Below the pieces are notes generated by a model. That model saw only the letters and a program-made list of their open reading frames with translations, had not been told where the DNA came from and ran no database searches. The position numbers and the translations under genes are program-made. Shown here piece after piece: positions 20,742 to 23,959 of a stretch of 45,245 nucleotides of DNA; within the stretch, counting starts at the first letter, position 1, and each line of letters starts with the position of its first letter. Source of the DNA: Rhodospirillaceae bacterium (lineage in GTDB: Bacteria > Pseudomonadota > Alphaproteobacteria > Azospirillales > Azospirillaceae); NCBI GenBank assembly GCA_029267445.1, contig JAJUIU010000024.1, forward strand, positions 1-45,245, in the 5' to 3' direction.

Positions 20742-21815
20742 GTGTTCCGCAGCACCGTTCTCGCACTGTTGTTGACAGCCATGCCACCCCTTCCCGCCAC
20801 GGCGGAAGGGGGCGGCAGGGTCTGGGTCGACCCGGGCCGGGCGGTTCCGGCCGCCACCGCCATCGGGCGGACCGCCCTGGCGACACCGCCGGCGGTGGAC
20901 GGGTCCGTCCGGGTGGACCTGTACGGGCCCCTCGGGCTGCCCGGCACCGCCATCGAGTTGATCGCCGCCGACCTCGCCAACGCCCTTGCCCACCACGGCA
21001 GCCCGGAGGAGGCCGGGCGCAACGCCCGGTTCATGCCGGCCGATCCGCCGTCCGCCGGCTTCCCGCGCCTGACGGTCGGAGCCGCCCCTGGCCTGGACTT
21101 CGGCCGCGATGCCGCCGGATCGGACTGGGCCGGCCGGGCGCTGCTCGACCTCCGCGCGTCGGTCGAGCCCGTTCGCGGCGTCGCCTTCGCGGGTGAGATG
21201 CGGACCACACCGGCAGCCTGGGGCGCGGGCATCGCCGGCCGTCCCGTCCGCGTCGGACGCGCCTATGCCGTCGGCGCGACCCGGCTTTGGGACTCGGGCT
21301 ACGCGCTGGTCGAGGCGGGCCTGCTGGAGGAATCCGCCGGGGGCTTCGGCGGGGAACTGCTGTGGCGGCCTTTCGACGCGCGCTGGGCCGTGTCGGTCGA
21401 GCTGCACCGTGTCTGGCGGCGCGAACCGGACGTGGCCGGGCCACTGGCTGGCGCGGGGATGACGCTGTTCGGCGCGACCGTCGCCTGGGACGCCGCCGAC
21501 GGCACCCGGTTCTCGGCGTCGCCCGTCCGCTTCCTGGACGGCGGCTCCGGACTGGAACTGTCCGTCGAGCGTCGCTGGATCGGGGGAAGCCGCATCGCCA
21601 TCGGGATGGTCGCAGACGGGTGGATCGCCCCGCTCCTGCGCGTGACCGTGCCACTGGGGTCGGGCGGCCCTTTCGGCTCAGAGGCCTGGCTGAAACTGCG
21701 GCCGCAGGATGCGGCAACCGGGCGGCGGCTGAATCGCCCCGCCCGGTTGCTCGATCTCACCGCTCCGGCGTCGTTCGGCGCCGTGACGGCCGGCTGGGAT
21801 CGTCTGCTCGACTGA
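20742..21815 (+). CDS. Secreted YjbH-like (DUF940) outer-membrane-type protein
   Basis: 357-residue exported protein. GTG 20742 starts a signal peptide (FRSTVLALLLTAMPPLPATA, cleavage near residue 22). The C-terminal 200 residues look like the YjbH/WbfB family of exopolysaccharide-linked outer-membrane proteins: GYALVEAGLLEESAGGFGGE, LLWRPFDARWAVSVELHRVW, and later alternating strands ending in LLRVTVPLG. YjbH homologues are usually about 700 residues, so this is about half length. No partner yjbE/F/G gene or polysaccharide locus is adjacent. Function in capsule or EPS export is only suggested by family. It follows the dehydrogenase by 77 bases and converges with the next gene, with six bases between. 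Confidence 0.65.
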   Translation: MFRSTVLALLLTAMPPLPATAEGGGRVWVDPGRAVPAATAIGRTALATPPAVDGSVRVDLYGPLGLPGTAIELIAADLANALAHHGSPEEAGRNARFMPADPPSAGFPRLTVGAAPGLDFGRDAAGSDWAGRALLDLRASVEPVRGVAFAGEMRTTPAAWGAGIAGRPVRVGRAYAVGATRLWDSGYALVEAGLLEESAGGFGGELLWRPFDARWAVSVELHRVWRREPDVAGPLAGAGMTLFGATVAWDAADGTRFSASPVRFLDGGSGLELSVERRWIGGSRIAIGMVADGWIAPLLRVTVPLGSGGPFGSEAWLKLRPQDAATGRRLNRPARLLDLTAPASFGAVTAGWDRLLD

Positions 21816-21821
21816 TCGGGA

Positions 21822-22331
21822 TCAGCGCCGGGCGACGATCGTGCCGCTCATCGGATCCATGACGACCGTCACCCAGTCGCCGTCCTTGGACAGCGCCTCG
21901 GCGATGTAGCTCTCGCCTTCCCGGCGGAAGTCGCGCACCTCGCTGAAGCCCAGCTGGCTGAAGCGGTTCAGCAGCGTGGTCTGCATCAGGGCGGTGGGAC
22001 GCTGCTCGGGGCCGGAGCGCTGCTCGACATTGGCCGGGTCGTCGATCTCGACCAGCACATCAGCGCCTGCCGGAACGTCGCCCTCGCCGATGGTGTCGGT
22101 CGTGCCCTGGCCGGTCACGACATTGCCTGACATGTCGCTGGCCGCCGTCCCCGTGTCCGTCGGGTTCTCGGCCGCGGGCGACGGCGGTGTCGGCGTGGTG
22201 GAGGCCGGTGGCGTTCCCGGGGCCGCCGACTGGTCCATCGACCCGGTCTGGGCGATGCCGTCCCCGCTTCCTAGGGTCGCGAAAACCAGGGTGAAGGCCG
22301 CGATGGCGGTCAGTATGCTGCGCGTCTTCAT
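21822..22331 (-). CDS. Secreted PepSY-like hypothetical protein
   Basis: 169-residue exported protein of unknown function. MKTRSILTAIAAFTLVFATL is a signal peptide, probably cut before residue 30. Residues 30-75 are a Pro/Ser/Thr-rich, disordered linker. The C-terminal part (about 110-169) has a PepSY-like alpha-beta pattern: LLNRFSQLGFSEVRDFRREG, then YIAEALSKDGDWVTVVMDP and SGTIVARR. ATG 22329-22331 follows AGGCAGACCC; the open frame extends 17 codons upstream without support. An EcfG-like promoter lies 64 bases upstream, suggesting induction in the general stress response. Small PepSY-like proteins often modulate envelope enzymes, which is inference here. Confidence 0.75.
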   Translation of the reverse strand: MKTRSILTAIAAFTLVFATLGSGDGIAQTGSMDQSAAPGTPPASTTPTPPSPAAENPTDTGTAASDMSGNVVTGQGTTDTIGEGDVPAGADVLVEIDDPANVEQRSGPEQRPTALMQTTLLNRFSQLGFSEVRDFRREGESYIAEALSKDGDWVTVVMDPMSGTIVARR

Positions 22332-22394
22332 GGGTCTGCCTCGTCGTTGGGTTGTTGACGCATCCGTTTCGGTCCTGGGCACCGTCGGCAGACC

Positions 22395-22420
22395 AACACA
22401 AGGGCGTGCTGCCCCGTTCC
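22395..22420 (-). promoter_or_regulatory. EcfG-like general-stress promoter, PepSY-like gene
   Basis: On the minus strand GGAAC (22416-22420) is followed after 17 bases by TGTT (22395-22398). The alphaproteobacterial EcfG consensus is GGAAC, 16-17 bases, CGTT. Transcription would start near 22388 and reach the ATG after about 57 bases. Confidence 0.5.
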
Positions 22421-22560
22421 CCGGACGGCCGCTTCTACGCCGAACGTCATAGGGCGAAATTCCGAGACTGTGGGCGGGCGCGGCCCGGATACCTTGCTCT
22501 CGACGCGATACGCGGCCGCCCGGAACGGGATGGGAAGCGCGGATTCAGGGAGGTTCAGGA

Positions 22561-22800
22561 ATGTCCGGACTACGGATCAGCGGGCCGATGGCGGTCCCGG
22601 CGAACGAGGGCGAACTGCGCTTTCTCGCCGCCAAGATCGCCACGTCCTACGCGCGCGCCAACCCGCTGGCGCCGGCGGAGCTCCCGGCCGTCATCCGTCT
22701 CGCTTACAGCGGGCTGCTGACCTGCGCGAACCCGCCGACGCCCGCGCCGGAAAAGCCGGGCCGGAGCAAAGGCGCGAAGATGGATCGTCGGCGCCGCTGA
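22561..22800 (+). CDS. MucR/Ros N-terminal-like miniprotein without zinc finger
   Basis: 79-residue protein. Residues 16-53 (GELRFLAAKIATSYARANPL, continuing APAELPAVIRLAYSGLL) follow the pattern of the MucR/Ros N-terminal oligomerisation region, L..L.A.I...Y...N.....LP.LI...Y..L. Full MucR is about 140 residues and continues into a C2H2-type zinc finger. Here that finger is absent, and residues 56-79 are a Pro-rich, very basic tail (RSKGAKMDRRRR). The gene is well supported by GGAGGTTCAGGA directly before ATG 22561. It lies between two genes with EcfG-like promoters. It could bind MucR and alter its DNA-bridging oligomers, an inference; a degenerate MucR remnant is the alternative. Confidence 0.7.
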   Translation: MSGLRISGPMAVPANEGELRFLAAKIATSYARANPLAPAELPAVIRLAYSGLLTCANPPTPAPEKPGRSKGAKMDRRRR

Positions 22801-22864: not shown

Positions 22865-22889
22865 GGAACCTTGATTGATCGCCGTTGTT
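22865..22889 (+). promoter_or_regulatory. EcfG-like general-stress promoter, DUF1328 gene
   Basis: GGAAC (22865-22869) is followed after 16 bases by TGTT (22886-22889), one mismatch from the EcfG-type consensus GGAAC-N16/17-CGTT. The predicted start near 22896 lies about 54 bases before the DUF1328 ATG. Confidence 0.55.
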
Positions 22890-22949: not shown

Positions 22950-23114
22950 ATGCTCTATTGGGCGCTTATCTTCTTCATTGTCGCGGTCGTCGCCGGCGTG
23001 CTCGGCTTCGGCGGCATCTCGTCGGCCACGGCGGGAATCGCACAGATCCTCTTCTTCATCTTCCTCGTCGTCTTCGTGATCTCACTGATCATGGGCTTGG
23101 TCAGGCGTCGCTAG
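22950..23114 (+). CDS. DUF1328 small membrane protein (YtjA-like)
   Basis: 54-residue inner-membrane protein made of two transmembrane helices. [20 protein letters not shown] is the first, [11 protein letters not shown] the turn, and [19 protein letters not shown] the second, ending RRR on the cytosolic side. This is the full usual DUF1328 length. ATG 22950 (MLYWAL) is the family start and follows GGGGGATGCG; the open frame reaches 25 codons upstream but those residues are not part of the family. Function is unknown, though members are often stress-induced, which agrees with the EcfG-like promoter upstream. Confidence 0.92.
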
Positions 23115-23320: not shown

Positions 23321-23959
23321 CTAGACGTGCTCCCGCTCCGTCTCGCGCTCGACGACATCGCCAGCACCGCCATCCATCAGCAGGCGGAGCGCGCGGCGGC
23401 CGCGCGACAGGCGGGACTTCACGGTCCCGATGGACACCTGGAGGATGTCCGCCGCCTCGGCGTAGGAGATGCCTTCCAACCCGATCAGTAGCACGACCTC
23501 GCGCTGCTCGGTGGGCAACCGGTCGAGCGCGCGGCGCAGGTCCCGAAGTTCCAGGCGGACGACCTGACTGCCGTGGCTGCCGCCCAGTCCCGCCTGCACC
23601 TCGCCATCGATGTCGACGAAGGTCTGCTGACGGCGGATGCCGTTGATATGGAGGTTGCGCAGGATGGTGAACAGCCAGGCGCGCAGGTTCGTGCCCGCCT
23701 GCCAGAGGTGAAGACGGCTGAGCGCCCGTTCCAGGCACTCCTGGACGAGATCGTCCGCAAGCGCCGAGTCCCGGACCATGGCCCGGGCGAAGCGGCGGAG
23801 CCGGGGAATCTCCTCGGCGATCTGGGCGACGACGGCGGGGTCCTTCTCACGGCGCTCCGCCGCCTGTTCGGCGGACGTCAGCACCCGCTCGTCGGCGACG
23901 CCCTGCGAAGCCGCGTCCGACCGCGGCAGGCGATCGCGGATGGTGATGTCGCCGTCCAT
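23321..23959 (-). CDS. ECF-type RNA polymerase sigma factor
   Basis: 212-residue sigma factor with regions 2 and 4 only. Region 2 includes ADDLVQECLERALSRLHLWQ (68-87) and NLRAWLFTILRNLHINGIRR (91-110). Region 4 is LPTEQREVVLLIGLEGISYA followed by the helix-turn-helix EAADILQVSIGTVKSRLSRG (167-186). A 40-residue charged N-terminal extension is longer than usual. ATG 23957-23959 follows GGAGGGCCATTC. No anti-sigma factor, NepR, PhyR or asp23-like gene is adjacent, so its control is not evident. The exact ECF class cannot be set by eye. The upstream 389 bases are AT-rich and noncoding. Confidence 0.92.
   Translation of the reverse strand: MDGDITIRDRLPRSDAASQGVADERVLTSAEQAAERREKDPAVVAQIAEEIPRLRRFARAMVRDSALADDLVQECLERALSRLHLWQAGTNLRAWLFTILRNLHINGIRRQQTFVDIDGEVQAGLGGSHGSQVVRLELRDLRRALDRLPTEQREVVLLIGLEGISYAEAADILQVSIGTVKSRLSRGRRALRLLMDGGAGDVVERETEREHV

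Follow-up and report, generated by a model that had tools for sequence, protein, structure and literature searches.

A 79-residue gene of an Azospirillaceae bacterium codes for a protein that is homologous to the N-terminal oligomerisation domain of Ros/MucR regulators and carries, behind that domain, a basic tail and no zinc finger. The gene lies in the 45,245-nt stretch of DNA analysed here (hereafter the window; contig JAJUIU010000024.1 of the Rhodospirillaceae bacterium assembly GCA_029267445.1). Its homology to the MucR N-terminus, its orthologs in several genera and the purifying selection on its core confirm, at the level of sequence and beyond chance, that the gene is real. MucR silences genes of alphaproteobacteria in the manner of H-NS. 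A conserved natural protein that joins the MucR oligomerisation domain to a different candidate DNA-contacting arm probably modulates MucR or acts as a silencer in parallel with it. The reading that we lean towards, with a confidence somewhat short of even, is that of a self-assembling, zinc-finger-free MucR-type binder of AT-rich DNA, which would share MucR's DNA or compete for it.

A short gene with a MucR-type N-terminal domain

The gene and its start site occupy the following positions of the window:

22549..22553 (+): ribosome-binding site GGAGG, with a 7-nt spacer to the ATG of the short gene, found by reading of the sequence
22561..22800 (+): short gene, an ATG open reading frame of 79 aa, coding for a MucR-type N-terminal hairpin and a basic tail, with no zinc finger
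22588..22590 (+): alternative in-frame ATG (M10) of the short gene, which gives a length nearer the N-termini of the orthologs and has no comparable ribosome site

The initial annotation had described a 79-residue gene with a good ribosome-binding site, coding for a MucR/Ros N-terminal module with a basic tail and no zinc finger. Both parts of this description hold: the frame has 79 codons with GGAGG 7 nt before its ATG, and its product shows homology to the N-terminal oligomerisation domain of MucR/Ros over residues about 18-56. The significant match to a MucR profile that was also anticipated was obtained for the family and failed for the single sequence. Alone, the window protein scored 15.2 bits against Pfam ROS_MUCR (PF05443), below the cut-off of 25.4 bits (E = 0.023, residues 22-64 on positions 5-47 of the 123-position profile), and it had no match in NCBIfam. 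Six orthologs scanned singly against ROS_MUCR gave five matches, all under 25.4 bits, and one ortholog without a match, while 14 of 17 short-family members matched the profile at E ≤ 1, the best at 1.3e-4. By hhalign, the profile of the short orthologs (25 rows) aligned to that of the full-length MucR N-terminal domains (50 rows, some of them cut at a late Met) with a probability of 98.4% over 52 columns; the E value of 6.9e-15 refers to this one profile pair and is not database-wide.

When five full-length MucRs were compared with the window by tblastn, three matched the short open reading frame (E from 5e-7 to 2e-4) through their N-terminal domain only, and the remaining two gave no match to it. 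The other match below E 0.5 (E = 0.11, residues 112-161 of the full-length MucR L046) falls within the sigma-factor gene, on the minus strand, and was taken as chance. Zinc-finger remnants downstream, which would mark the frame as a decayed full-length mucR, were looked for with the same five proteins on the window and by a PF05443 search of the genome, and none was found inside or beside the short gene. The latter search led to two places, both of them full-length genes on other contigs.

Distribution and descent of the short family

A profile built from 17 short proteins recovered stand-alone short orthologs (E ≤ 8.4e-20) in 26 of 82 Azospirillaceae genomes and in 6 of 13 genera, in agreement with the expectation that related genomes would conserve it as a short gene in its own right. 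Every sampled genome of these six genera has it: the window's own genus (1/1), Nitrospirillum (g2, 7/7), g3 (1/1), Skermanella (g8, 5/5), g12, which comprises Niveispirillum, Oleisolibacter and Aerophototrophica (11/11), and g13 (1/1). All 26 proteins were read; they span 67-136 aa, and none has a zinc finger or an Ml5-type DNA-binding domain. All other matches of the profile had E values of at least 6.6e-9 and lay in frames of at least 143 aa, and those that were translated are full-length MucRs. Left out of the count were L027/L052 (weak match, not MucR-like) and L017/L046 (a full-length MucR). A single-sequence search of genome contigs gave 217 pattern matches with none confirmed, and an alignment search gave 15 loci. 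The order-level search covered no genomes beyond the 82 of the family search. In the class-level search (385 genomes), the frames that matched outside the family were at least 136 aa long; with at most 11 candidates scored per genome, this is a weak test of absence outside the family.

At least one full-length MucR occurs in each of the 82 family genomes. The coexistence of a full-length MucR with the short gene is thus borne out in the window's genome, by the two PF05443 places, but with MucR present in all 82 genomes it proves nothing.

The 26 short proteins comprise 23 distinct cores and 25 distinct tails. Of 54 full-length frames found, 50 were caught by the core pattern, giving 42 distinct cores. 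In a tree of these sequences, which rests on 39 columns and whose bootstrap had not settled, the 23 short cores fall on one side of a branch against the 42 full-length MucR cores, with a support of 100/99. Ratios of pN/pS in the core were 0.064 (g2, 21 pairs), 0.159 (g8, 10 pairs), 0.305 (part of g12, 15 pairs) and 0.328 (a single pair), values by which the core of the short gene is under purifying selection. We propose that the short family branched off from Ros/MucR long ago, has mostly been inherited vertically and is without the zinc-finger domain.

An origin of the short gene from a mobile element was considered and is not supported by searches of phage, plasmid or viral collections. Phage records searched with the window protein and plasmid records searched with a Nitrospirillum ortholog gave no match, and viral contigs searched with the short-family alignment gave 27 pattern matches, none of which was confirmed.

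The hairpin core

The predicted parts of the protein map to the window as follows:

22606..22659 (+): predicted helix 1, residues 16-33 (AlphaFold2)
22672..22728 (+): predicted helix 2, residues 38-56 (AlphaFold2), which holds the positions of MucR L36, L39 and I40 (residue numbers from PMC6250670)
22723..22725 (+): Cys55, the Cys common to all 23 distinct short cores
22729..22797 (+): proline-rich basic tail, residues 57-79, predicted disordered; the RGR core is absent here and present in most orthologs

The AlphaFold2 model of the window protein, made with 14 sequences, is a two-helix hairpin with disordered ends and tail (pLDDT about 93-94 over residues 21-50; overall pLDDT 73.1, pTM 0.52). 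A Foldseek search against the PDB gave 37 matches, the best at E 3.4, and none of use. According to the available parts of two studies (PMC11662661, PMC6250670), Brucella MucR is modelled with helices at residues 3-28 and 33-55, needs L36, L39 and I40 for oligomers and V22, Y25 and V26 for packing, and is modelled as a 12-mer for which the N-terminal domain suffices. Using the spacing of these six residues, we assigned MucR residue number n+13 to core column n. On this numbering, positions 36, 39 and 40 are hydrophobic and position 25 is Tyr in all 23 distinct short cores. Other residues are replaced: V22 by Ala in 22 cores and by Ser in one, V26 in 22 cores (Ala in 14), V43 by Ala in 22 and by Thr in one, S/T46 by Gly in 20, and L15 by Arg, His or Tyr in all 23. 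All 23 short cores have Cys at position 50, where 33 of 42 full-length cores have V, L or I. The core carries a mean net charge of +1.74 in the short family (0 to 3, n = 23) compared to −1.17 in full-length MucRs (−4 to 3, n = 42).

The changed packing residues and charge suggest that the hairpin of the short family has been re-tuned and that its assembly may be at least partly its own. Since V22 is replaced in all 23 short cores and V26 in 22 of them, the formation of a ring is not assured.

A basic tail with a frequent RGR arm

Behind the Cys, the short family has a basic, mostly proline-rich tail, and the whole-protein pI is 9.9-11.6 in 17 of 17 representatives. RGR occurs in 19 of 25 distinct short tails compared to 7 of 36 distinct full-length MucR C-terminal tails, and RGRP in 9 of 25 compared to 1 of 36. 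In a shuffle test that ignores relatedness, carried out on 17 of the 26 tails after removal of near-copies by hand, RGR was present in 12 tails against 1.46 in shuffles, a number reached by none of 2000 shuffles, and RGRP in 7 against 0.34. The longer motif RGRPTWT is found in three of five Skermanella tails (GRPTWT behind RGR or SRG). The tail of the window protein contains neither RGR nor RGRP and reads GRSKGAK...RRRR; with the RGR core lost, DNA contact may be weaker here. Pfam AT_hook had no match among six orthologs at E ≤ 10, nor among 17 members at E ≤ 1.

The authors of a Ros/MucR study proposed that the basic C-terminal arm of these proteins acts like the AT-hook-like loop of H-NS, QGRTPA (PMC5693944, available part). 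Judged by its sequences, the short family looks like a hairpin with such an arm from which the zinc finger is gone. Seven full-length MucRs (L017, L079, L081, L082, L131, L138 and L150, the 7 of 36 distinct C-terminal tails above) carry RGR in an arm that follows the zinc finger, and some full-length MucRs may therefore have two DNA-contacting parts.

Possible modes of action

In the mechanism that we favour, the hairpin would self-associate and the arm, multiplied by oligomerisation, would contact the minor groove of AT-rich DNA. The short protein would then work beside full-length MucR on AT-rich DNA, either through competition for sites or as part of MucR particles. Basic proline-rich tails can have other roles, which counts against reading the protein as a binder of AT-rich DNA.

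A rather doubtful alternative, which we place next, is that the short protein caps or poisons MucR: the hairpin would enter MucR particles, dilute their zinc-finger arms and relieve silencing as H-NST does on H-NS, with a tail that only assists. H-NST, a homolog of H-NS consisting of the oligomerisation domain only, antagonises H-NS (PMC7074111, available part). Capping would fit the homology of the oligomerisation domains (98.4% by hhalign), the presence of full-length MucR throughout the family and at two places in the window's genome, and the opposite mean charges of the two kinds of core, which could favour mixing; the model also gains from the window's own tail, which is without the RGR core. 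The RGR arm of 19 of 25 distinct short tails argues against it, as does a hairpin core that is more positive and whose packing residues have changed together, whereas the co-occurrence with MucR, being universal in the family, is uninformative. H-NST itself is reported both to antagonise H-NS and to bind DNA to some extent (available part of PMC7074111), so that capping and DNA binding overlap as models.

Conserved neighbours and EcfG-type motifs

The surroundings of the short gene in the window are as follows:

21822..22382 (−): divergent PepSY-like gene, a conserved neighbour (weak PepSY_2 match, E 0.0042)
22395..22420 (−): EcfG-like motif GGAAC-N17-TGTT before the divergent PepSY-like gene
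22865..22889 (+): EcfG-type motif GGAAC-N16-TGTT before the DUF1328 gene
22950..23114 (+): DUF1328 gene, the downstream neighbour (PF07043, E 3.8e-15)
23321..23959 (−): ECF sigma factor gene, a conserved neighbour

Neighbours were analysed for 23 of the 26 short orthologs (G099, G103 and G104 left out). At 17 of 17 loci outside Nitrospirillum, the short gene stands among members of one neighbour set: acyl-CoA dehydrogenase, YjbH-like, PepSY-like, ECF sigma factor and lytic transglycosylase genes. At all six Nitrospirillum loci (L036, L037-L040 and L042), it is flanked by pentapeptide-repeat and hybrid histidine kinase genes, whose domains were taken from one locus. Conversely, seven loci of g11, which we take to be Azospirillum, and one of g5 have the PepSY-like and DUF1328 genes and no short gene in the gap by tblastn; the short gene was therefore gained or lost there and is not obligatory to these neighbours.

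Two of the neighbours deserve separate mention. The YjbH-like protein of the window (20742-21815, +) has 357 aa, compared to 585-696 aa at nine other loci where the open reading frame was found, and aligns to no more than a C-terminal stretch of the Pfam model (positions 474-590 of 658); its gene is shortened or broken in the window's genome. The best Pfam match of the ECF sigma factor is the sigma2 domain of PhyR. In the g3 genome, a 161-aa open reading frame with a weak NepR match (L033:6738-7223, −; E 0.0097) adjoins the ortholog of this sigma factor gene, and the two are possibly an EcfG-NepR-like pair. The best NepR match in the window's genome is on another contig and, at 25.2 bits, just below the cut-off.

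The short gene had been placed between two genes with EcfG-like promoters and linked to stress on that account. The promoter of the general stress response is given as GGAAC-N16-CGTT with a flexible −10 element (PMC7083833, available part). Both motifs are present in the window, and the one before the DUF1328 gene recurs, GGAAC-N15-18-NGTT being found upstream of that gene at 15 of 16 loci, window included. The motif before the PepSY-like gene does not (0 of 6 other loci where a script could place the gene), and the number of EcfG-like motifs in the whole window is unremarkable (5 compared to 2.57 in shuffles). The short gene itself has no EcfG motif within 220 nt upstream in the window. Among the 26 short orthologs, GGAAC-N15-19-GTT lies upstream of eight, namely the five of Skermanella and three others at −146, −154 and −176; in all five Skermanella orthologs it takes the form GGAAC-N16-CGTT at −81 to −83, the spacer varying among them. 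Given its recurring motif, the DUF1328 gene probably belongs to the core of the general stress regulon of Azospirillaceae. For the short gene, the proposed link to stress is plausible in Skermanella, going by these upstream motifs, and unproven in the window's genome.

These surroundings bear on a further explanation, which we regard as improbable, namely that the partner of the short protein is something other than MucR. The protein would then be a small adaptor of its conserved neighbours (the ECF sigma factor, or genes for the envelope or for exopolysaccharide), or else a peptide that binds nucleic acid and has a hairpin that does no more than dimerise, and the Cys would serve as a redox or dimer bond. 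The neighbourhood shared by 17 of 17 non-Nitrospirillum loci, the Cys of all 23 cores and the EcfG-type motif of the five Skermanella orthologs would suit such a role, but the short gene stands elsewhere at all six Nitrospirillum loci and is missing beside the same neighbours at the seven g11 loci and the g5 locus. That the frame is a decayed full-length mucR or has arisen by chance, for which the sub-threshold Pfam score and the lack of an NCBIfam match could speak, is contradicted by the absence of a zinc-finger remnant beside it and by 26 orthologs on one branch, under purifying selection and in a conserved place, and is hardly credible.

Comparison with known systems

The short zinc-finger-free family is not described in titles or the beginnings of abstracts among the matches listed in the literature on MucR, with room left by subscription papers. 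Nearest to it are the full-length MucR2 and MucR3 of S. meliloti, which have altered zinc sites (PMC13297338, available part). In R. centenum, the MucR-type gene RC1_2608 is reported to rise late in cyst germination (PMC7117780, available part), and the available part of PMC8857273 contains nothing on truncated MucR forms.

With Ros/MucR proteins (PF05443; Brucella MucR, the M. loti Ml proteins and S. meliloti MucR1-3), the short family shares a homologous two-helix N-terminal domain, the same spacing of oligomerisation residues, a proline-rich linker and a basic C-terminal arm. It differs from them in having no zinc-finger or Ml5-type domain, in the change of V22, V26 and V43 mostly to Ala, in its invariant Cys and more positive core, and in an arm in which RGR is far commoner. 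Like H-NST, the short protein combines the oligomerisation domain of the local silencer and some basic residues with the lack of the silencer's DNA-binding domain, and it could act by mixing. We claim no homology between the two: H-NST was reported on genomic islands (PMC7074111, available part), whereas the short gene is chromosomal and lies in conserved neighbourhoods.

The comparison with H-NS concerns the order of parts, which is the same in both: an oligomeriser, a linker and an arginine-glycine minor-groove motif. By eye, the GRPTWT of three of the five Skermanella tails resembles the H-NS loop. No homology was detected, Pfam H-NS having no match among 17 short-family members at E ≤ 1, and unlike H-NS, the short protein has no folded domain around the arm motif in the AlphaFold2 model of the window protein.

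Returning to the self-assembling binder of AT-rich DNA, a bolder form of this reading, which we offer only tentatively, is that the short family represents a second design of MucR-based nucleoid protein. In this design, the MucR oligomerisation hairpin, a proline linker and an AT-hook-like arm would add up to an H-NS-like architecture of unrelated origin that at least six related genera have retained. The invariant Cys could make its assembly sensitive to redox state, and the protein would compete with zinc-finger MucR on AT-rich DNA or tune it. The family makes it testable, in Nitrospirillum, Niveispirillum and Skermanella, whether the oligomerisation domain alone or a mixed particle regulates MucR. 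If true, the proposed design would show that the H-NS order of parts can be built from unrelated pieces.
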